NCBI GenBank assembly: GCA_903843965.1
Contig: CAIMRY010000006.1
Location: 1-64,000 of the forward strand
DNA length: 64,000 nt
Source: an uncultured delta proteobacterium
Lineage (GTDB): Bacteria; Desulfobacterota; Desulfovibrionia; Desulfovibrionales; Desulfovibrionaceae
Direction: 5' to 3'
Below the pieces are notes generated by a model that was not told the DNA's origin, did no database searches, and worked only from the letters and a program-made list of their open reading frames with translations. The translations under genes were made by a program, and so were the position numbers. Positions 5,475 through 13,464 of this stretch are shown one piece after another; the first letter of the stretch is position 1, and each line of letters starts with the position of its first letter.

Positions 5475-7001
5475 ATGACCAGACACATCAAGTCATCCGC
5501 ACTGACGGATTCATCAACGCCAAGGCTCCCGAGACGCAAGACCCTGCTGCTGGCCATAGGACTGCTGGTGTCGCTGCTTATTCTCAGTGCCGGTGCCGCG
5601 TTCGCCGCCACAGCCCAAGACACGCACAAGGAACCGTCCATGGAGGGCATGGCGGGCATGGAGGCGCCAACGGCGAAACAAACCAAGGCGGCCCCAGCGC
5701 CCAAGGCTGCGCACCAGGAACCGGCTGAGGTGCATGTCGCCGCAGAGGCGAAGCATGCCCCGGAAGGCGCCGTCGCCAAAGACGCGCACGATGAACCGGC
5801 CATGGAAGGCATGGACATGGGCGGGGCCGAGGCCTCGGAGCAGCATGGAGCCAACGCAGGCCATGGCCACGGCGTTCCGGGCATCGGCTACATCGGGCTG
5901 GCCAAGGGGACTGGGGCCATCGACCCGGCGCTGCTGAAGGATTTCAAGGAGCGGGTGTCCACGGAGGCCATGAGCAAGGGCAAGCTGGATCAGGTCCGTT
6001 TCGCCTTCTTCGCGCTCTCCTTCCTCATGGTCTGTTTGGCCTACGCCAGGATAGCCAAGCTGGAGCCGCTCACCAGGAAGCTGCGCGCAGCCGTTGACTG
6101 GCACTCCCTGGGCACGGTGACGGGCATCATCCTGTGCGGACTTGTGATTCCGTCGGGCATCATCATCACCTTCTTCTTCATGCCCACCTCCACCGGCGTC
6201 TATGCCAGCGTGGAGGCCATGACGGCCAGTCCGGCCCTGGCCTTCTTCAGGAACCTGCACAACTGGTCCAGCGAGGTCTTCATCTGGCTGATGCTGCTGC
6301 ATGCGGCCCGGACCATCTCCACGCACACCTTCCTGGGCAAGCGCAAGTTCATCTGGCTGGCTGGCGCGGTGGCCAGCGCCGTGGCCTGGGTCGCCTTCAT
6401 CTCCGGCAGCTTCATGCGCGGCGACCAGGAGGCCATCGAAGGCTTCGAGCACATGATGTACTCCTTTGGGCTGGTCCCTGGGGGCAGCGTCGTCTCGCAG
6501 TTCTTCTCCGGCGACCTGACCCTGATCCGCCTGACCACGCTCCACGTCATCGCCACCATCTTCATCATGGCCGTGTTCGTGGCCATGCACGTGCTGATGC
6601 GCAAGGTGCACGTGCTGGTGGAGTCCCGCTGGAAGACGGCGACCATCTACTCCCTGGTTCTGACCGCCCTCATGGTGGTGCAGAGCATCTACATGGAAGC
6701 CCCCTTTGTCCGCGGGCTGGCGAACATCCCGACGCTCTCCGGCATCGAGTACACCAAGCCGCCCTGGCCCATCTACTTCCTGATCCAGGGCGAGAACTGG
6801 TTCGGCGCAAACGCCATGGTCCTGATCCTGACCGTCACTTTCGTCCCGTTGATCATATTGCCCTATGTGGTCGAGCTGCTGCCCATGACGGACCAGCGCA
6901 AGCGGCAGGTGGGCGAGGGCGCTTTCTATGCAGGCGTCTTTGCGCTGTTGCTTGTGTCCTTCATCGCCGCCGGGGGCAAGATCATCGCGCACATATTCTA
7001 G
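5475..7001 (+). CDS. Cytochrome b/b6-type membrane protein with Met/His-rich periplasmic arm
   Basis: A 508-residue protein. Residues 1-45 hold a membrane anchor. Residues 50-140 are a periplasmic arm rich in Ala, Met and His (MEGMAGMEAP, MEGMDMGG, HGANAGHGHG). The rest is a cytochrome b core with about eight membrane helices. Haem-ligand pairs are visible as HNW...LLH (14 apart) and HVI...AMH (15 apart); the 15-residue second spacing is that of cytochrome b6. KPPWPIYF corresponds to the subunit IV PEWY region. It probably oxidises menaquinol, but no Rieske or c-type subunit is adjacent, so the acceptor is unknown. The Met/His arm suggests metal binding. Confidence 0.75.
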   Translation: MTRHIKSSALTDSSTPRLPRRKTLLLAIGLLVSLLILSAGAAFAATAQDTHKEPSMEGMAGMEAPTAKQTKAAPAPKAAHQEPAEVHVAAEAKHAPEGAVAKDAHDEPAMEGMDMGGAEASEQHGANAGHGHGVPGIGYIGLAKGTGAIDPALLKDFKERVSTEAMSKGKLDQVRFAFFALSFLMVCLAYARIAKLEPLTRKLRAAVDWHSLGTVTGIILCGLVIPSGIIITFFFMPTSTGVYASVEAMTASPALAFFRNLHNWSSEVFIWLMLLHAARTISTHTFLGKRKFIWLAGAVASAVAWVAFISGSFMRGDQEAIEGFEHMMYSFGLVPGGSVVSQFFSGDLTLIRLTTLHVIATIFIMAVFVAMHVLMRKVHVLVESRWKTATIYSLVLTALMVVQSIYMEAPFVRGLANIPTLSGIEYTKPPWPIYFLIQGENWFGANAMVLILTVTFVPLIILPYVVELLPMTDQRKRQVGEGAFYAGVFALLLVSFIAAGGKIIAHIF

Positions 7002-7044
7002 TACTGACCGCAACATCGCAACATTCAACCCGAAGGAGTTCCGT

Positions 7045-7479
7045 ATGAAGAAGATGACGACCCTCAAAAAGTCACTGCTGACTGCGGTTGTTTTTGCCGC
7101 CATGGCCTTTCCGACCCTTTCCGCAGCTGCCGAGCAGACTCCTGGCAGCATGATGGGCAGCGGCCAGACCATGGCGCGCAGCGGCCAGGGCATGATGATG
7201 GACGCCAAGGGAACTGCCGCGATGATGCGGGGCGGCAACATGCTGATGCAAGGCGGGAACACGATGATGGACGCCAAGCGCATGTCCCTTGGCGAGAAGA
7301 TGATGTTGGACGGCCAGACCATGATGGGCAAGGACGACGCCATGGGCAGCGGCCAGACCATGATGCTGGATGGCCAGAAGATGATGATGGACGGCAAGAA
7401 GATGATGATGGACGGCTACGCGAAGATGAAGGACGGCAAGAAGCAGCTGGACACGGACCTGAAGAAGGCCGCGAAGTAG
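7045..7479 (+). CDS. Secreted methionine-rich repeat protein
   Basis: A 144-residue protein with a signal peptide (cleavage probably after LSAAA, about residue 29). The mature part is a chain of imperfect repeats such as GQTMMLDG, GQKMMMDG and GKKMMMDG, and about 30 of 144 residues are Met. The C-terminus is Lys/Asp-rich. The GGAG site and ATG lie 43 bp behind the cytochrome b gene, so the two are likely one operon. Met clusters suit Cu(I) or other soft-metal binding, or scavenging of oxidants; both are inference. No known family is recognised. Confidence 0.65.
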   Translation: MKKMTTLKKSLLTAVVFAAMAFPTLSAAAEQTPGSMMGSGQTMARSGQGMMMDAKGTAAMMRGGNMLMQGGNTMMDAKRMSLGEKMMLDGQTMMGKDDAMGSGQTMMLDGQKMMMDGKKMMMDGYAKMKDGKKQLDTDLKKAAK

Positions 7480-7702: not shown

Positions 7703-9694
7703 ATGACCGACACCAGCGCCCAACAACTGCCCGCCGAAAGCCTGCTCACAGGCGTCCTGGTGGATGACGCCGCAGCCGACAAAGCCCCGGCCGACAACTC
7801 ACCCGACCACAACGCCCCTGGCGACGACGCCCTGCCCGAAGGCGCCCTTCCTGATGGCGTGGAGCGCCAGCGCATGGACGTGGACATCGCCTGCGTGGGC
7901 TTTGGCCCGGCCATGGGCGGCTTTCTGCACACCCTGTCCAGGGGGCTCTTGAACGAGGACGGCGCCCCGGCGGTCGAGAGCAAGGCCATGCCCGGCATGC
8001 CGCCCCAGGTCATCTGCTACGAGCGGGCCGACGACATCGGCTTCGGCGTGTCCGGCGTGGTCACCAAGGGCCGCGGCATCAGGGCCAGCTTCCCGGACCT
8101 GGACCTCTCGCAGATACCGCTGGCCACCAGGGTGACGGACGAGAAGGTCGTGTTCCTGCTCGACCCGCACGGGGCCAGCAGGCGGCCTGGGCTCATGCGC
8201 GTGAAGGAGGCCTTTCTGCGCGCCGTGGGCCTGGCCAAAAACCATGCCTATGAACTCCCGTACATCCCGAATTTCCTGCGCAAGGAGCCCGGCTTTTTGC
8301 TCTCCATGGGCCAGTTCAACCAGTGGGCCGGCGGGCAGATCATGGGCCAGGGCGTGGCGCAGATCTGGCCGGGCACGCCCGTGGCCGAACCTTTGATGTT
8401 CGACCAGGTGGTGGTGGGCGTGCGCCTGCAGGACCAGGGCGTGGACAAGCAGGGCAGACCCGAGGCCGGGTTCATGCCCGGCATGGACATACGCAGCCAG
8501 CTCACGGTCGTGGCCGACGGACCCGTGGGCGCGGTGGGCCGCAAGCTGGACGAGAAGCTGGGCCTGCCCACGGGCAACCACGCCCGGGAATGGGCCGTGG
8601 GCATGAAGATGGTGGTGGACCTGCCCGAGGGCTGCGAGCTCAAGGAAGGCCTGGTGCTGCACACGCTCGGCTACCCCGAGCCGGAGATCTTCGGCTTCCT
8701 CTACGTCTACCCCGGCAACATCGCCAGCCTGGGCATCTTCGTGCCCTCCTGGTATGATTCCCCGGTGCGCACCGGCTACCGCTACCTGCAGCACTGGATG
8801 CAGCACCCATACCTCTGGAAGCACCTCAAGGGCGGGCGCATGCGCTCCTGGGGGGCCAAGAGCCTGCAGGAATCCGGCCGCAAGGGCGAGCCGCACCTGG
8901 TGGGCGACGGGTTCGCGCGCATCGGCGAGGGCAGCGGCACCACCAACGTGCTCACCGGTTCCGGCTTTGACGAGGCCTGGACCAGCGGCGTGCTGCTGGG
9001 CGTCAGCGTCCTTGAGCTCTTGAAGGCGGGCAAGCCCTTCACCAAGGACAACCTGACGCGCTCCTACGTGCGCCGCCGCCGCGACTCCTGGCTGGACCGC
9101 GAGGCCAAGATGGCCGAAAAGGCGCGCGACGGCTTCCAGGTGGGCGTCATCCAGGGGCTCATCGGCATGGCCCTGGCCGGACTGACCGACGGCAAGGCCT
9201 TTTGGCCCGGCGCGACCAAAAAGCCGCACGAGCGCATCCCCAGCCTGGAGGACTTTTTCCGGGGCCGCATCCCGGCGGACGAGATCGCCCGGATCCGCAG
9301 CGAGTGCACGCAAAAGGGCCTGCCGCTCCACGGCGCGCTCATGGACCGCGTGGGCTGGCCCAGCATCCAGTTCGACGGGCAGCTGCTCGTCTCGCACCAG
9401 GACGCGCTGCTCCTGGGCGGCAAGGTCCAGGCGCCTGCGGGCTACCGCGACCACGTGACCTTCAAGAGCAGGCACGTCTGCCAGGCCTGCGACGAAAAGG
9501 TCTGCATCGAGGCCTGCTCGGGCCAGGCCATCACCACCAACCCGGACGGCGGCGTTCCCCTGTTCGACCGGGAAAAGTGCGTGCACTGCGGGGCCTGCAT
9601 CTGGAACTGCAGCAAGCCCGCGCCAAAGGGCGGGGAGGGCGCCAACGTGGACTTCCAGGCTGGCGCGGGCGGCCTGCACTCGGCGGAGAACTAA
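7703..9694 (+). CDS. ETF:quinone oxidoreductase-like flavoprotein with C-terminal ferredoxin domain
   Basis: A 663-residue protein. Residues 1-55 are a low-complexity Ala/Pro/Asp extension. Residues 58-560 are an FAD-binding oxidoreductase (an N-terminal nucleotide fold starting VDIACVGFGPAMGG; a late FAD segment GEGSGTTNVLTGSGFDEA). Residues 590-645 are a ferredoxin domain with CQACDEKVCIEAC and CVHCGACIWNC. This layout matches ETF-QO, which passes electrons from ETF to the quinone pool. It is followed by the DsrE selenoprotein gene, then etfB and etfA. It is somewhat longer than mitochondrial ETF-QO because of the N-terminal extension. Confidence 0.8.
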   Translation: MTDTSAQQLPAESLLTGVLVDDAAADKAPADNSPDHNAPGDDALPEGALPDGVERQRMDVDIACVGFGPAMGGFLHTLSRGLLNEDGAPAVESKAMPGMPPQVICYERADDIGFGVSGVVTKGRGIRASFPDLDLSQIPLATRVTDEKVVFLLDPHGASRRPGLMRVKEAFLRAVGLAKNHAYELPYIPNFLRKEPGFLLSMGQFNQWAGGQIMGQGVAQIWPGTPVAEPLMFDQVVVGVRLQDQGVDKQGRPEAGFMPGMDIRSQLTVVADGPVGAVGRKLDEKLGLPTGNHAREWAVGMKMVVDLPEGCELKEGLVLHTLGYPEPEIFGFLYVYPGNIASLGIFVPSWYDSPVRTGYRYLQHWMQHPYLWKHLKGGRMRSWGAKSLQESGRKGEPHLVGDGFARIGEGSGTTNVLTGSGFDEAWTSGVLLGVSVLELLKAGKPFTKDNLTRSYVRRRRDSWLDREAKMAEKARDGFQVGVIQGLIGMALAGLTDGKAFWPGATKKPHERIPSLEDFFRGRIPADEIARIRSECTQKGLPLHGALMDRVGWPSIQFDGQLLVSHQDALLLGGKVQAPAGYRDHVTFKSRHVCQACDEKVCIEACSGQAITTNPDGGVPLFDREKCVHCGACIWNCSKPAPKGGEGANVDFQAGAGGLHSAEN

Positions 9695-9719
9695 CCACGC
9701 CACACCCAGGAGGGACCAG

Positions 9720-10040
9720 ATGCAGATACTGCTCGTGCTTTCCAGCGCCGACCCGGAGATCAAGTGGAACGCCGTGCGTCTGGGCAATGTGCTGCTGGAG
9801 CAGGGCGAGGAGGTCTCGCTGTTCCTGAACGGGCCCGGCGTCGACCTGCTGGCCGGGGACTCGGAGCGCTTCCCCATCGGGCGCGAGGCCAAGGTCTTTG
9901 TGCTGAGCGACGGCGCGCTGGCGGCCTGAGGCAAGTGCATGGACCTCCACGGCGTGGAGGACGGGGAATACGCACCCAGGGCCAACATGAAGAAGCTCAC
10001 CGCGCTCATCAAGGACGCGGACAGGATACTGAACTACTGA
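9720..10040 (+). CDS. DsrE-family selenoprotein (in-frame UGA read as Sec)
   Basis: The frame opens at ATG 9720, meets TGA at 9927-9929 and continues with coherent DsrE-like sequence to a TGA at 10038, giving 106 residues. The internal TGA sits at residue 70 in ALAA-U-GKCMDLHG, where DsrE-family proteins often carry a Cys in a CxxC-like site, so it reads as U-x-x-C. A SECIS-like hairpin starts 14 nt after the TGA. yedF, a marker of selenium-using bacteria, lies 2.7 kb downstream. The protein probably carries redox or sulfur chemistry for the ETF cluster. Conventional calling would stop at residue 69 and miss the active site. Confidence 0.8.
9927..9967 (+). promoter_or_regulatory. UGA codon and SECIS-like hairpin
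   Basis: The UGA (9927-9929) is followed 14 nt later by CCTCCAC-GGC-GTGGAGG (9944-9960), a perfect 7-bp stem with a 3-nt loop starting GG. The apical loop lies about 21 nt after the UGA. Position, small loop and a G early in the loop fit bacterial SECIS elements bound by SelB. Confidence 0.7.
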
Positions 10041-10113
10041 CGCCCGGCGGAGAATAAGCGAGTGATTTCGGGGAACTGGGGCAGAAAAATTCTAGGACCA
10101 CGGGAGGTGGATT

Positions 10114-10680
10114 ATGTCTGAGGATTCCTCTACAGCCCTTCTTCACCGTGTTACCCGTAGGATTTTCGTTTCGTTGTTGCTCTTTTTTGCTCCTGCGCTT
10201 CTCATCGCGGGATTGATGCCAGAATCGAAAAGCGTGGTGCCCGCCCTTGTCATAGCAACCGGTTGTGTCGGCGGGTTTGTCGGCCTCCAGCGCAGATTGA
10301 AGGAGCTGTCTCCGTCAGAACTCGAACTCATCGCCTCATCGATTTACTATACGGCGCTTTCGCCCCTGGTAGGCGGCATATTGGCCCTGCTGCTCTACAT
10401 AATATTTCTGTCAGGCCTTGTTTCCGGTCAACTTTTTCCGAATTTTGTCGCCGATCACATCGCAAGCGCCATGGCCAATGCAACGTCAGCAGCCGGTCAA
10501 GCAAGGACTGACGAAACGTTTGTGTTGATATTCGGGCAGCATGGCGTGGGGTATCAGGACTATGCGAAGTTGATTTTTTGGAGTTTCGTTGCTGGCTTTT
10601 CCGAGCGTTTTGTCACGGATGTGATCAGCCGCCTGGAAGGCTCCGCAGTGAATAATGCCATCAAGGATTTTACGAAATAG
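10114..10680 (+). CDS. Membrane protein of unknown function
   Basis: A 188-residue protein with membrane helices at about residues 18-36, 42-60 and 83-105 and a possible fourth near 160-172 (LIFWSFVAGFSERF). It has a GGGAGGTGG site before ATG. Base composition and codon use are less GC-rich than in the flanking ETF genes. It separates the selenoprotein gene from etfB and looks like an insertion into the ETF cluster. The AGFSERFV segment occurs in other bacterial membrane proteins I cannot name with certainty. Confidence 0.6.
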   Translation: MSEDSSTALLHRVTRRIFVSLLLFFAPALLIAGLMPESKSVVPALVIATGCVGGFVGLQRRLKELSPSELELIASSIYYTALSPLVGGILALLLYIIFLSGLVSGQLFPNFVADHIASAMANATSAAGQARTDETFVLIFGQHGVGYQDYAKLIFWSFVAGFSERFVTDVISRLEGSAVNNAIKDFTK

Positions 10681-10778: not shown

Positions 10779-11582
10779 ATGAAAGGATTGCAGATCGTGG
10801 TTTTGGGCTCCATCGTGCCCGACCCGCTCCAGACCCTGGAGCCCATTGTCGGCCCCACCGGCCCGGCGCTGAAGAACGAGATGATGCTGCCAGCCGTGCT
10901 CGACCCCTGGGCGGGCCACGCCCTGTTCGAGGCCGCCAGCCTGGCCAAGAGGGTCGAGGGCAAGGTCTACCTAGTGGCCCTGGGCCCCAAGGCCAAGCTC
11001 CAGCAGGTGATGATGAGCGTGGCCCAAAAGGTGCCCTTTGAGATCGTGGTGCTCGACGGCCCGGCCAGCGGCTTTGCCGACGCGGCGGAGACGGCGCGCG
11101 CGCTGGCTGGCGCGGTGGAGAAGATCCCCGGCCTGGACAAGGGCAAGCTGCTGCTTTTCGGCGGCTGGCAGTCGGCCTCGCGCGGGACGGGTGCTGTGCT
11201 TTCGATGGTGGGCGAGCTTCTCGGCATCACCGACCAGTTCCAGGGCGTGGACGAGATCAACGTGGCCGAGGACGGCAGCTTCACCGTGCTGGAGCGCATC
11301 GAGGGCGGCAGCTACCAGCAGTCGTCCTGCCAGGGCCTGCCCGCCGCGCTGGGCTGGGCCACGGGCAACCTGCCCGAGCCGCCGAACAATCCCCAGGTGG
11401 GCATGGCCAACATGCGCCTGATCATGCCCGCGCTGCAAAAGGCCGTCCCTGCGCCGCTGAAAGGCGAAGGCCTGCGCTACCAGGGCGTGGAGGTGCCGAG
11501 CCAGCGCCGCGAGACGCGCATCGTCAAGAACGCCTCGGTCGACGAGATCGCCCGCGAGATCGCGGACTGGATCCGGGCCTAG
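10779..11582 (+). CDS. etfB: Electron transfer flavoprotein beta subunit
   Basis: A 267-residue EtfB. It has the adenine-nucleotide alpha/beta fold with LDPWAGHALFEAASLA near residue 41 (the family's DxxAxxxA helix) and a C-terminal segment for subunit contact. It forms a heterodimer with EtfA and carries electrons from acyl-CoA dehydrogenase to ETF:quinone oxidoreductase. etfA follows 24 bp downstream on the same strand. Confidence 0.85.
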   Translation: MKGLQIVVLGSIVPDPLQTLEPIVGPTGPALKNEMMLPAVLDPWAGHALFEAASLAKRVEGKVYLVALGPKAKLQQVMMSVAQKVPFEIVVLDGPASGFADAAETARALAGAVEKIPGLDKGKLLLFGGWQSASRGTGAVLSMVGELLGITDQFQGVDEINVAEDGSFTVLERIEGGSYQQSSCQGLPAALGWATGNLPEPPNNPQVGMANMRLIMPALQKAVPAPLKGEGLRYQGVEVPSQRRETRIVKNASVDEIAREIADWIRA

Positions 11583-11606: not shown

Positions 11607-12617
11607 ATGAACGTGCTTTTCCTTGCGCATACGGATGAAGGCGGCAGCCTCGGCGCTGCTGCCATGGAGGCCCTGGGCGCGGCCAAGGGACTCGGCGGAA
11701 GCCTGCCCATCGAATTGACCGTCGGCCTGTACGGGGCCGAGGTCCAGGCCGCTGCGGACCAGATCGCGGGCTGCGGTGCGGTGAAATTTCTCGGCGTGGC
11801 CGGGGCGGAGTTCGCCAGCGCGCGCTACGGATCGGACGCCTCGGCCTGCGAGGCCCTGGCCAAGGCCGCCGGAGCGGAGCTGATCGTCATGCCCGCAACC
11901 TCCCGCGCCAGCCGCGTGGCTGCTGGCGTGGCCATGCGCCTGGGCGCGGCTGTGGACACGCGGCTGACCGGCCTCGTGGTGGAGGGCGGCAAGATCGTGG
12001 CCACCCGCTGGTTCTACCGCCAGCGTATGGTCGGCAAGATCGAGCGCGACGCGCGGCCCTGGCTGGTCACCGTGGACACGGGCTGCTTCGCCCCGGTCGC
12101 CGCCGCCCCTGGCACGGCCAGCGTGGAGCTGCTCCGCGTGGCCCCGGTCACGCGCACGGTGGTCACGGGCATCAATTCCCCGGCGGCCGACGCCCAGACC
12201 ATCCGGCCCGAGGCCAAGATGCTGCTCGTGGCGGGCGCTGGCTGGGGCAAGTCCCAGGCCGACGGCCAGAAGCACCTGGACGAGGCCTCAAGCCTCATCC
12301 TGGGCCTCTTGCACGCCACCCAGTGCTCGCTCGGCAGCTCCAAGTCTTTGGTCGACCAGAGCGGCGAGGGCGCGGCCCTGCCGTTTTTGACGCACATGCA
12401 CCAGGTGGGCCAGACCGGCTCCACCCCGCGCCACCAGAAGGGCCTGTCCACCTGCTGCCACGGCGAGGAGCCCCACGTGGTGGGCTGGCGCTTCATCAAC
12501 GAACGCCGGGCCATCAACCTCGACGCCAGCTGCGGCTGGGCCCAGGGCAAGGCCGACGTGCTCTACGTGGCCGACGCCTTTGCCGTGGTGGACAAGGTTG
12601 TGGAGTTGTTGCGGTAG
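11607..12617 (+). CDS. etfA: Electron transfer flavoprotein alpha subunit
   Basis: A 336-residue EtfA. The N-terminal half is the alpha/beta domain shared with EtfB. The C-terminal half is the FAD domain, recognisable by LLVAGAGWGKSQAD, SLGSSKSLVDQ, HQVGQTGSTPRHQKG and a late INLDASCGWAQGKADVLYVADAF segment (the usual family form has INKDPEAPIF...AD). A GGAGCAGGAC site lies before the ATG. With EtfB it makes the soluble flavoprotein of this cluster. Confidence 0.85.
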   Translation: MNVLFLAHTDEGGSLGAAAMEALGAAKGLGGSLPIELTVGLYGAEVQAAADQIAGCGAVKFLGVAGAEFASARYGSDASACEALAKAAGAELIVMPATSRASRVAAGVAMRLGAAVDTRLTGLVVEGGKIVATRWFYRQRMVGKIERDARPWLVTVDTGCFAPVAAAPGTASVELLRVAPVTRTVVTGINSPAADAQTIRPEAKMLLVAGAGWGKSQADGQKHLDEASSLILGLLHATQCSLGSSKSLVDQSGEGAALPFLTHMHQVGQTGSTPRHQKGLSTCCHGEEPHVVGWRFINERRAINLDASCGWAQGKADVLYVADAFAVVDKVVELLR

Positions 12618-12786: not shown

Positions 12787-13464
12787 ATGTCCGAAGACCT
12801 CATCCTGGATTGCCGTGGCCTGGCTTGCCCCGGCCCGGTCATGCGCTGCCTGGAGCTCATCGAGAAGCAGGCGCCCGCTGGCTTCGTGGTGCTGGTCGAC
12901 GACCCCGCCGCGCGGGAGAACGTCACCCGGCTGCTGGGCGGCAAGGGGTACGCCGTGGCCGTGGCCGAGGTCCTGTCCGAGGGATCGGGCCACAGCCGCC
13001 TTTCCGCCACGCGCCAGGACACGGTCGACAAGGCCCACGCGCCCGGTTCGGCCTCCACGCCCTGTTGCGCCCCGGCCGCGAGCCCGGCCGCCAGCCCGGT
13101 CGCCAGTCCGGTCGCCAGTCCGGTCAACGACAAGGTGACGGTGCTCATCGCGTCCGAGTCCATCGGCGCGGGCAGCGACGAGCTGGGCGGCAAGCTGATG
13201 CTGAACTTCCTGGCCACCCTGCCGGAGCTGGGGCCAAGCCTGTGGCGCATCATCCTGGTCAACGGCGGCGTGCGCCTGGCCACCCAGGGCCACCCCTGCC
13301 TGGACAAGCTCTCGGCCCTGGCCGCTGGCGGGGTCCAGGTGCTGGTCTGCGGCACCTGCCTGACCTACTTCGACCTCATGACGGCCAAGGCCGTGGGCGA
13401 GACCACGAACATGCTCGACGTGGTCACCAGCCTGCACCTGGCGGGCAAGGTCATCCGGGCGTAG
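12787..13464 (+). CDS. yedF: Selenium-metabolism protein YedF (TusA-DsrE fusion)
   Basis: A 225-residue, two-domain protein. Residues 5-75 are TusA-like with the CPxP motif in DCRGLACPGPVMRC. Residues 117-225 are DsrE-like with VCGTCLTYF. The linker (residues 85-115) has a short tandem repeat of PAASPVASPVASPV. YedF of this form occurs in selenium-using prokaryotes and is thought to help deliver sulfur or selenium. It fits the selenoprotein gene upstream. AAGAGGAG precedes the ATG. Confidence 0.85.
   Translation: MSEDLILDCRGLACPGPVMRCLELIEKQAPAGFVVLVDDPAARENVTRLLGGKGYAVAVAEVLSEGSGHSRLSATRQDTVDKAHAPGSASTPCCAPAASPAASPVASPVASPVNDKVTVLIASESIGAGSDELGGKLMLNFLATLPELGPSLWRIILVNGGVRLATQGHPCLDKLSALAAGGVQVLVCGTCLTYFDLMTAKAVGETTNMLDVVTSLHLAGKVIRA

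Follow-up and report, generated by a model that had tools for sequence, protein, structure and literature searches.

The locus and its genes

The window analysed here is a 64,000-nucleotide stretch of DNA from the genome of an uncultured deltaproteobacterium of the Desulfovibrionaceae (GCA_903843965.1, contig CAIMRY010000006.1; this genome is referred to as G000). A gene for a DsrE-like protein lies on the forward strand at 9720–10040, beginning with an ATG at 9720 that has a ribosome-binding-like AGGAGG 6 nt 5' of it (9708–9713, same strand, recognised from the sequence), running through a TGA at codon 70 (9927–9929) for 36 more codons, and ending at a TGA stop at 10038–10040. Read with selenocysteine (Sec) at UGA70, the product has 106 residues and matches PF02635 (DsrE) over residues 2–105 with 32.3 bits against a curated cut-off of 22.7. 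The motif is U-G-K-C, in which the second residue, Cys73 (codon at 9936–9938), is one that varies across the wider Sec family. A hairpin of the bacterial SECIS type follows at 9944–9960, with a stem of seven perfect pairs (9944–9950 with 9954–9960), a GGC loop (9951–9953) and a spacing of 14 nt between the UGA and the stem. The initial annotation had described an in-frame UGA at residue 70 within U-x-x-C, a further 36 residues, and a 7-bp perfect hairpin with a small loop starting with G 14 nt downstream, and all of these positions were found in the sequence as it gave them.

The neighbouring genes are on the same strand. Upstream, at 7703–9694, is an ETF:quinone oxidoreductase-like protein (ETF-QO) with a C-terminal ferredoxin-like part (PF21162, 40.4 bits, cut-off 27.7; its 4Fe-4S matches are all below their cut-offs), which we do not judge to be functionally linked to the selenoprotein. 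Downstream are two ETF subunits with PF01012 matches (cut-off 26.7), which we call EtfB (10779–11582, 43.8 bits) and EtfA (11607–12617, 76.7 bits), and between the selenoprotein gene and etfB is a 188-residue ORF (10114–10680) with no Pfam match and no tblastn match in 12 other stretches, among them the G001 and G002 ETF clusters. The yedF gene that had been noted nearby is at 12787–13464 and encodes a protein of the selenium-metabolism-associated TusA–DsrE type (TIGR03527, 177.8 bits, cut-off 110). Elsewhere in the window, a protein rich in Met-rich, Asp-Gly repeats (MMLDGQ/MMMDGK-like) is encoded at 6928–7479, directly behind a cytochrome b-like gene (5475–7001).

Decoding of UGA70 as selenocysteine

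Homologues were found at E ≤ 1e-4 in 45 of 149 related genomes, and in 48 of the 54 match rows a single TGA is the sole in-frame stop; the remaining six comprise four matches that are partial or weak and two full-length Cys forms (G037 and G045). The block U-G-K-C-x-x-x-H-G-V is common to 30 aligned orthologues, with the C present in 29 of them. Neither of the two findings that the initial annotation named as refuting it was made, since Sec machinery is present in the genome and homologues run on past residue 69. The codons behind the UGA evolve as coding sequence: in 38 orthologues, pN/pS for codons 71–106 is 0.44 in frame versus 1.20 and 1.14 in the other two frames, with a value of 0.29 upstream of the UGA. 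Behind the UGA, stops occur in the +1 frame of all 38 orthologues and in the +2 frame of 21, while the complete lack of in-frame stops is partly by construction, as the 38 rows were those with the motif UGKC or UGKR, 106 residues and no TAA or TAG (the G263 copy, with a TAG at residue 16, was thereby dropped). The Sec machinery of the window genome is complete, with SelA (567.9 bits), SelB (388.8 bits), SelD (319.1 bits) and tRNA-Sec (82.9 bits) all over their cut-offs, and its SelD has an in-frame TGA of its own near the N terminus.

The hairpin was compared across 30 orthologues, in which 99.5% of the stem pair cells are standard. Changes on both sides of the stem account for 16 cells over three pairs, a number that none of 500 shuffles reached; the weakest of the five covariation measures, the number of further pair types, was reached in 37 of the 500, and the signal was abolished when the pairing partner was shifted by between one and three columns. 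The most variable pair joins position one of codon 76 (Leu, Ile or Val) to position three of codon 80 (Glu or Asp), and because of this coupling the RNA stem appears to constrain the protein sequence. The synonymous rate is also lowered around the hairpin, with pS = 0.29 in codons 71–81 versus 0.73 in codons 82–106. When the 42 nt behind the codon were folded and compared with codon-order shuffles (108 of 112 rows; G010, G401 and two rows in which no motif was located were omitted), the median z was −1.43 for 93 Sec forms versus 0.38 for 15 Cys forms, and z was below −1 in 68% of the Sec forms versus 7% of the Cys forms (Mann–Whitney p = 1.2e-7), though single sequences scatter and some Sec forms are unremarkable (e.g. 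the UGTC pair, median z −0.16). Taken alone, the window hairpin has a stability that is ordinary for its composition (z −0.84 relative to dinucleotide shuffles), so that the support for this putative SECIS element is comparative. An Rfam scan of 9600–10200 matched no family at E ≤ 5.

The conserved UGA, the covarying stem, the purifying selection on codons 71–106 and the full-length Cys homologues lead us to read UGA70 as Sec, and the window gene almost certainly encodes a genuine DsrE-like selenoprotein, as far as comparative sequence data can indicate. The initial annotation of a DsrE-family selenoprotein is thus upheld by the PF02635 match and the Sec machinery together with these comparative results. 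It is scarcely credible that the gene is a pseudogene or codes for a 69-residue protein terminating at the UGA: the ordinary stability of the window hairpin and the decay seen in two relatives (the G010 copy is frameshifted and the G401 copy damaged) would suit such a reading, but the conserved UGA, the selection on the following codons, the compensatory stem changes and the full-length Cys homologues are all against it, and the coding-type evolution of codons 71–106 led us to reject a product that ends at residue 69.

We note that the G263 copy (L138, 6001–6318) has an in-frame TAG where most of the clade has Trp16, in addition to the Sec TGA. A pyrrolysine reading was considered and rejected; as no PylS was found over the cut-off in G263, the TAG more probably reflects a nonsense change or an error in sequencing.

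Predicted fold and position of the active site

The best of five AlphaFold2 models of the product, obtained with the window sequence and 29 relatives, was kept and has a mean pLDDT of 94.6 (the five spanned 94.6 to 63.9). It has the DsrE/YchN/TusD fold, and in a Foldseek search of the PDB the best match was E. coli YchN (1jx7), followed by DsrE/DsrF-like entries and DsrEFH. Alignments by VIA-align each covered 106 residues, with Z values of 16.2 (3mc3), 15.8 (1jx7), 14.1 (2d1p_A, TusBCD) and 14.0 (2hy5_A, DsrEFH), and the first entry beyond the ten best had a Z of 7.4. PDB sequence searches, one using the family profile and one using a Cys form as the query, produced no DsrE-type match.

In a MAFFT alignment of 107 sequences, the column of Sec70 is that of Cys78 in both TusD and YchN, and Cys or Sec is present in all 107, which answers the proposal in the initial annotation that homologues be inspected at this residue (eight of 112 broken, truncated or partial rows were omitted from the alignment and from the tree described below: G010, G136, G112, G110, G263, G401, G451 and G247). 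Passages in PMC3397948 describe sulfur bound at DsrE-Cys78 and passed on to DsrC, cite TusD-Cys78 as the only essential cysteine, and suggest that the superfamily has its active site at this residue.

The window genome also has three further PF02635 matches over the cut-off, all without stops. Cys-type DsrE paralogues, one of them with C-M-P-C, are found on contig C13 of this genome (L203, 775–1872) near an ORF read as heterodisulfide-reductase-like, and for this reason a Cys-based sulfur relay may coexist with the Sec form.

Genomic neighbourhood

It had been suggested that the pairing with ETF and ETF:quinone oxidoreductase pointed to a redox step in that pathway, and this is not borne out by a comparison of related loci. 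ETF genes adjoin the selenoprotein gene in only three of 49 loci (the window and 48 others, some cut by contig ends), where it is flanked by ETF-QO, EtfB and EtfA; these three (G000, G001 and G002) belong to one genus, and a fourth ETF-adjacent site, recognised from coordinates, is in the same genus (G003, in which the copy is at a contig end about 40 bases from ETF-QO). We fetched ten ETF-QO loci from the 31 other genomes with an ETF-QO match, of which two ended at a contig edge and eight were readable through EtfA, and in all eight ETF-QO, EtfB and EtfA are consecutive without the selenoprotein gene (G004, G010, G011, G013, G016, G054, G058 and G081; the first four are of the same genus as the window). 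Both genes occur in 21 related genomes, and in 17 of these they lie on separate contigs or at a distance of over 190 kb. The selenoprotein gene is also present in three families of the order with no ETF-QO match at E ≤ 1e-40. Within the family of the window the two genes do co-occur more often than expected (32 and 35 of 89 genomes have each and 21 have both, with the overlap counted by eye; Fisher p = 0.0002, ignoring ancestry), an association that counts against our reading. As the adjacency is confined to one genus and the gene is absent from all eight of the other readable ETF clusters, a functional pairing is unsupported, and the place of the gene beside the ETF genes looks like a local accident that gives no clue to function. 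This case shows that functional conclusions should not be drawn from the position of one gene next to ETF genes.

Other surroundings differ between lineages. The selenoprotein gene adjoins genes read as ilvB, ilvH and ilvC in four genomes and genes read as rplS and trmD-like in three, and across the window clade we found no conserved neighbour that ties it to sulfur genes. In other clades, a cluster of ArsR-type regulators lies within 1.2 kb of the gene in 11 genomes (upstream in nine) and a second such cluster is near the gene in five, with one representative of each matching HTH_5; a pyridine nucleotide-disulphide oxidoreductase is near Sec or Cys forms in four genomes, and the one representative scanned had a weak sulfide-dehydrogenase match just below the cut-off. 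It should be noted that this clustering of neighbours kept all ORFs and replaced an earlier version that was dominated by long antisense ORFs in GC-rich DNA. The nearness of yedF says little because yedF is widespread in the order (TIGR03527 over the cut-off in 117 of 149 related genomes, compared with 45 of 149 for the selenoprotein gene).

Distribution with dissimilatory sulfite reductase

Across 395 genomes of the phylum, family matches at E ≤ 1e-8 were found in 73, DsrB in 191 (E ≤ 1e-60) and SelB in 353 (E ≤ 1e-75). Sixty-three genomes, spanning 19 family codes, have a match that holds a TGA (in G263 and G401 also a TAG; the position of the TGA was read only at the fetched loci), and all 63 have DsrB. 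SelB occurs in the absence of DsrB in at least 162 genomes, and a TGA-bearing homologue is found in none of these (Fisher p = 9e-20 for the lower bound of 162, ignoring ancestry; the overlaps between the lists for the gene, DsrB and SelB were counted by eye). The ten positive genomes not counted as Sec are G293, G299, G404, G431, G452, G468, G505, G247, G308 and G341, and the six DsrB-negative genomes with a family match all have Cys forms. Two of the 63, G157 and G181, have no SelB at E ≤ 1e-75, and one of these genomes is 85% complete. We also note that G004, a near-complete genome of the window genus, has neither a DsrB match nor a Sec-DsrE gene.

Variation in the U-x-x-C motif

The motif is UGKC in 46 and UGVC in 22 of the 112 rows. 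Cys occupies the third place after Sec in 73 of 94 Sec-motif sequences, and in the other 21 it is replaced by Leu (11), Ser (7), Ala (2) or Arg (1) while Sec stays (the 94 rows leave out the frameshifted G010 and include partial rows, the damaged G401, the TAG-bearing G263 and two identical G029 copies). As judged from these sequences, Sec, rather than the Sec/Cys pair, is the constant of the family. On a tree of 89 Sec rows and 15 Cys rows, the variation at the place of the second Cys requires at least six changes among the Sec rows, and the Sec/Cys state changes four times by gain or loss, with at least three changes forced by well-supported branches; the tree was made by a quick method from 104 columns with the TusC row also left out, and is poorly resolved with 20 of 102 inner branches starred. 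The profile query was built from the window clade, and distant Cys forms are therefore under-sampled.

Some genomes have more than one form. A Cys form (CGTC) and a Sec form (U-K-K-A) are in tandem in L160 (6366–7115, G525) and L185 (6001–6727, G451), as in a heteromeric pair, and another tandem of Cys and Sec forms in L157 (6001–6671, G393) has its members placed in different parts of the tree. Four family matches at three contigs were found in G119 (L093, L088 and L094), including U-Q-K-S and U-G-K-L forms.

A possible role as a sulfur carrier

The reading that we think slightly better than even as an overall explanation is of a Sec-containing DsrE-family protein working as a one-centre sulfur carrier, and for the window protein itself we regard the chances of a sulfur-carrier role as evenly balanced. 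The position of Sec in the active site, the repeated replacement of the partner Cys and the co-occurrence with DsrB together suggest a selenium-centred sulfur relay, and we prefer a sulfur (persulfide) carrier with one selenol, acting in dissimilatory sulfur metabolism, to a redox function within the ETF pathway. SelB and Sec-tRNA would read through UGA70, directed by the predicted hairpin right behind the codon, and the product would probably oligomerise like its relatives. The Sec selenol would then be at the position where, by alignment, TusD and DsrE carry persulfide, and the selenolate could accept sulfane sulfur to form a Se–S intermediate. The sulfur might be handed on to an acceptor thiol, for example of DsrC or of a polysulfide-handling partner, as part of the sulfur transfers that accompany dissimilatory sulfite reduction in the cytoplasm; DsrC specifically is a doubtful acceptor. 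Where present, Cys73 may aid the release of sulfur or shield the selenium, but such a mechanism would not require it.

A more general proposal would be that sulfate and sulfite reducers use Sec-based DsrE proteins as a selenium-centred relay tied to dissimilatory sulfite reductase, in place of the DsrEFH of sulfur oxidisers, that this relay works through a single selenol (Se–S) independently of the U-x-x-C partner, and that Sec has been taken up at the same site more than once. We put this forward tentatively, and think it less likely than not by a clear margin. Several observations count against the carrier reading. The U-x-x-C motif is intact in most of the Sec sequences and in nearly all close relatives, leaving the window clade open to a dithiol-like mechanism, and the ArsR-type regulators and the oxidoreductase near the forms in other clades would also suit a role in redox or polysulfide stress. 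The window genome has Cys-type DsrE paralogues as well, and no conserved neighbour in the window clade ties the gene to sulfur genes. The DsrB association was computed ignoring ancestry, and SelB was not found in two of the 63 genomes.

A rival reading is a thioredoxin-like redox protein in which a cycling Sec70–Cys73 selenenylsulfide serves for the reduction of disulfides, polysulfides or peroxides. The family is listed in published tables by its UxxC motif, a passage in PMC1088965 gives UXXC as the redox motif of DsrE-like selenoproteins, UGKC and UGVC are common among our rows, and Cys73 is kept in 29 of 30 close relatives. We nevertheless consider this reading rather unlikely, as Leu, Ser, Ala or Arg takes the place of Cys73 in 21 of 94 Sec sequences that keep Sec, and the predicted fold is that of DsrE and not of thioredoxin. 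The one-centre sulfur carrier is preferred over a thioredoxin-like pair because the partner Cys is replaced in these sequences while Sec is constant.

Two further readings draw on the gene's surroundings. The protein might carry selenium to SelD or into another selenium pathway together with YedF, which is encoded 2.7 kb away in the window and is described in a passage of PMC5322559 as a TusA–DsrE protein linked to selenium metabolism. This is improbable given that TGA-bearing homologues are found in 63 of 395 genomes against 353 with SelB, and that yedF is much the more widespread gene in the order; a Sec requirement in a protein that delivers selenium would also be circular, though the SelD here needs Sec too. 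About as improbable is a selenium or redox component of the ETF/ETF:quinone oxidoreductase pathway, for which the same-strand adjacency in G000, G001, G002 and G003 and the co-occurrence with ETF-QO in the family would speak, and against which stand the eight other readable ETF clusters without the gene (four in the same genus), the separation of the two genes in 17 of the 21 genomes with both, and the occurrence of the gene in three families lacking an ETF-QO match.

Comparison with known DsrE-family systems

The window protein resembles DsrE of the Allochromatium vinosum DsrEFH complex and TusD of E. coli TusBCD in fold over all 106 residues, but it has Sec where these have Cys, and the identity is low (16–19%). 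Moreover, no dsrF/dsrH (tusC/tusB) partner was recognised beside the selenoprotein gene, where the neighbours match ETF-QO, ETF subunits and YedF rather than DsrF/DsrH (TusC/TusB). YchN (1jx7) is somewhat closer in sequence (23% identity, Z 15.8) and has a C-x-x-C at the same place, so that its active site has Cys where the window protein has Sec. YedF shares a C-terminal DsrE-like part, described in a passage of PMC5322559, which scores 16.0 bits here and is below the Pfam cut-off; unlike the window selenoprotein, it is a two-domain TusA–DsrE protein.

Papers differ on whether DsrEFH is found in sulfate reducers: it is absent from them according to a passage in PMC3397948, whereas two others name dsrE in Desulfococcus multivorans (PMC5109826) and describe a divergent DsrEFH-like complex in Desulfobulbales (PMC13047784).

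The initial annotation was right that DsrE-like selenoproteins have been described in deltaproteobacteria, and the window gene is one more member of an already published selenoprotein family. In the passages available, the Sargasso Sea yielded DsrE-like UxxC selenoproteins in 2005 (PMC1088965), one was listed for Desulfovibrio vulgaris in 2006 (PMC1794560), 'DsrE 1' and 'DsrE 2' were found in ocean metagenomes in 2008 (PMC2398784), and the family is listed in two reviews (PMC9312934 and PMC13188914), the later of which (PMC13188914) names it among selenoproteins whose biological functions are said to 'remain largely [...]'. We recognised no functional study of a Sec-form DsrE in the literature searched, where most subscription journals were outside coverage. 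The published proteins share PF02635 and Sec in U-x-x-C with the window protein and have D. vulgaris among their hosts, and the passages on record give few members and no function. In comparison, the present gene has ETF genes for neighbours in a single genus, and Sec members that lack the second Cys occur in the wider family. With Sec aligned on the sulfur-carrying residue of DsrE and TusD, the supposed resolving Cys repeatedly replaced, and TGA forms found only with dissimilatory sulfite reductase across 395 genomes, this comparison gives the DsrE-like selenoprotein family a testable role.
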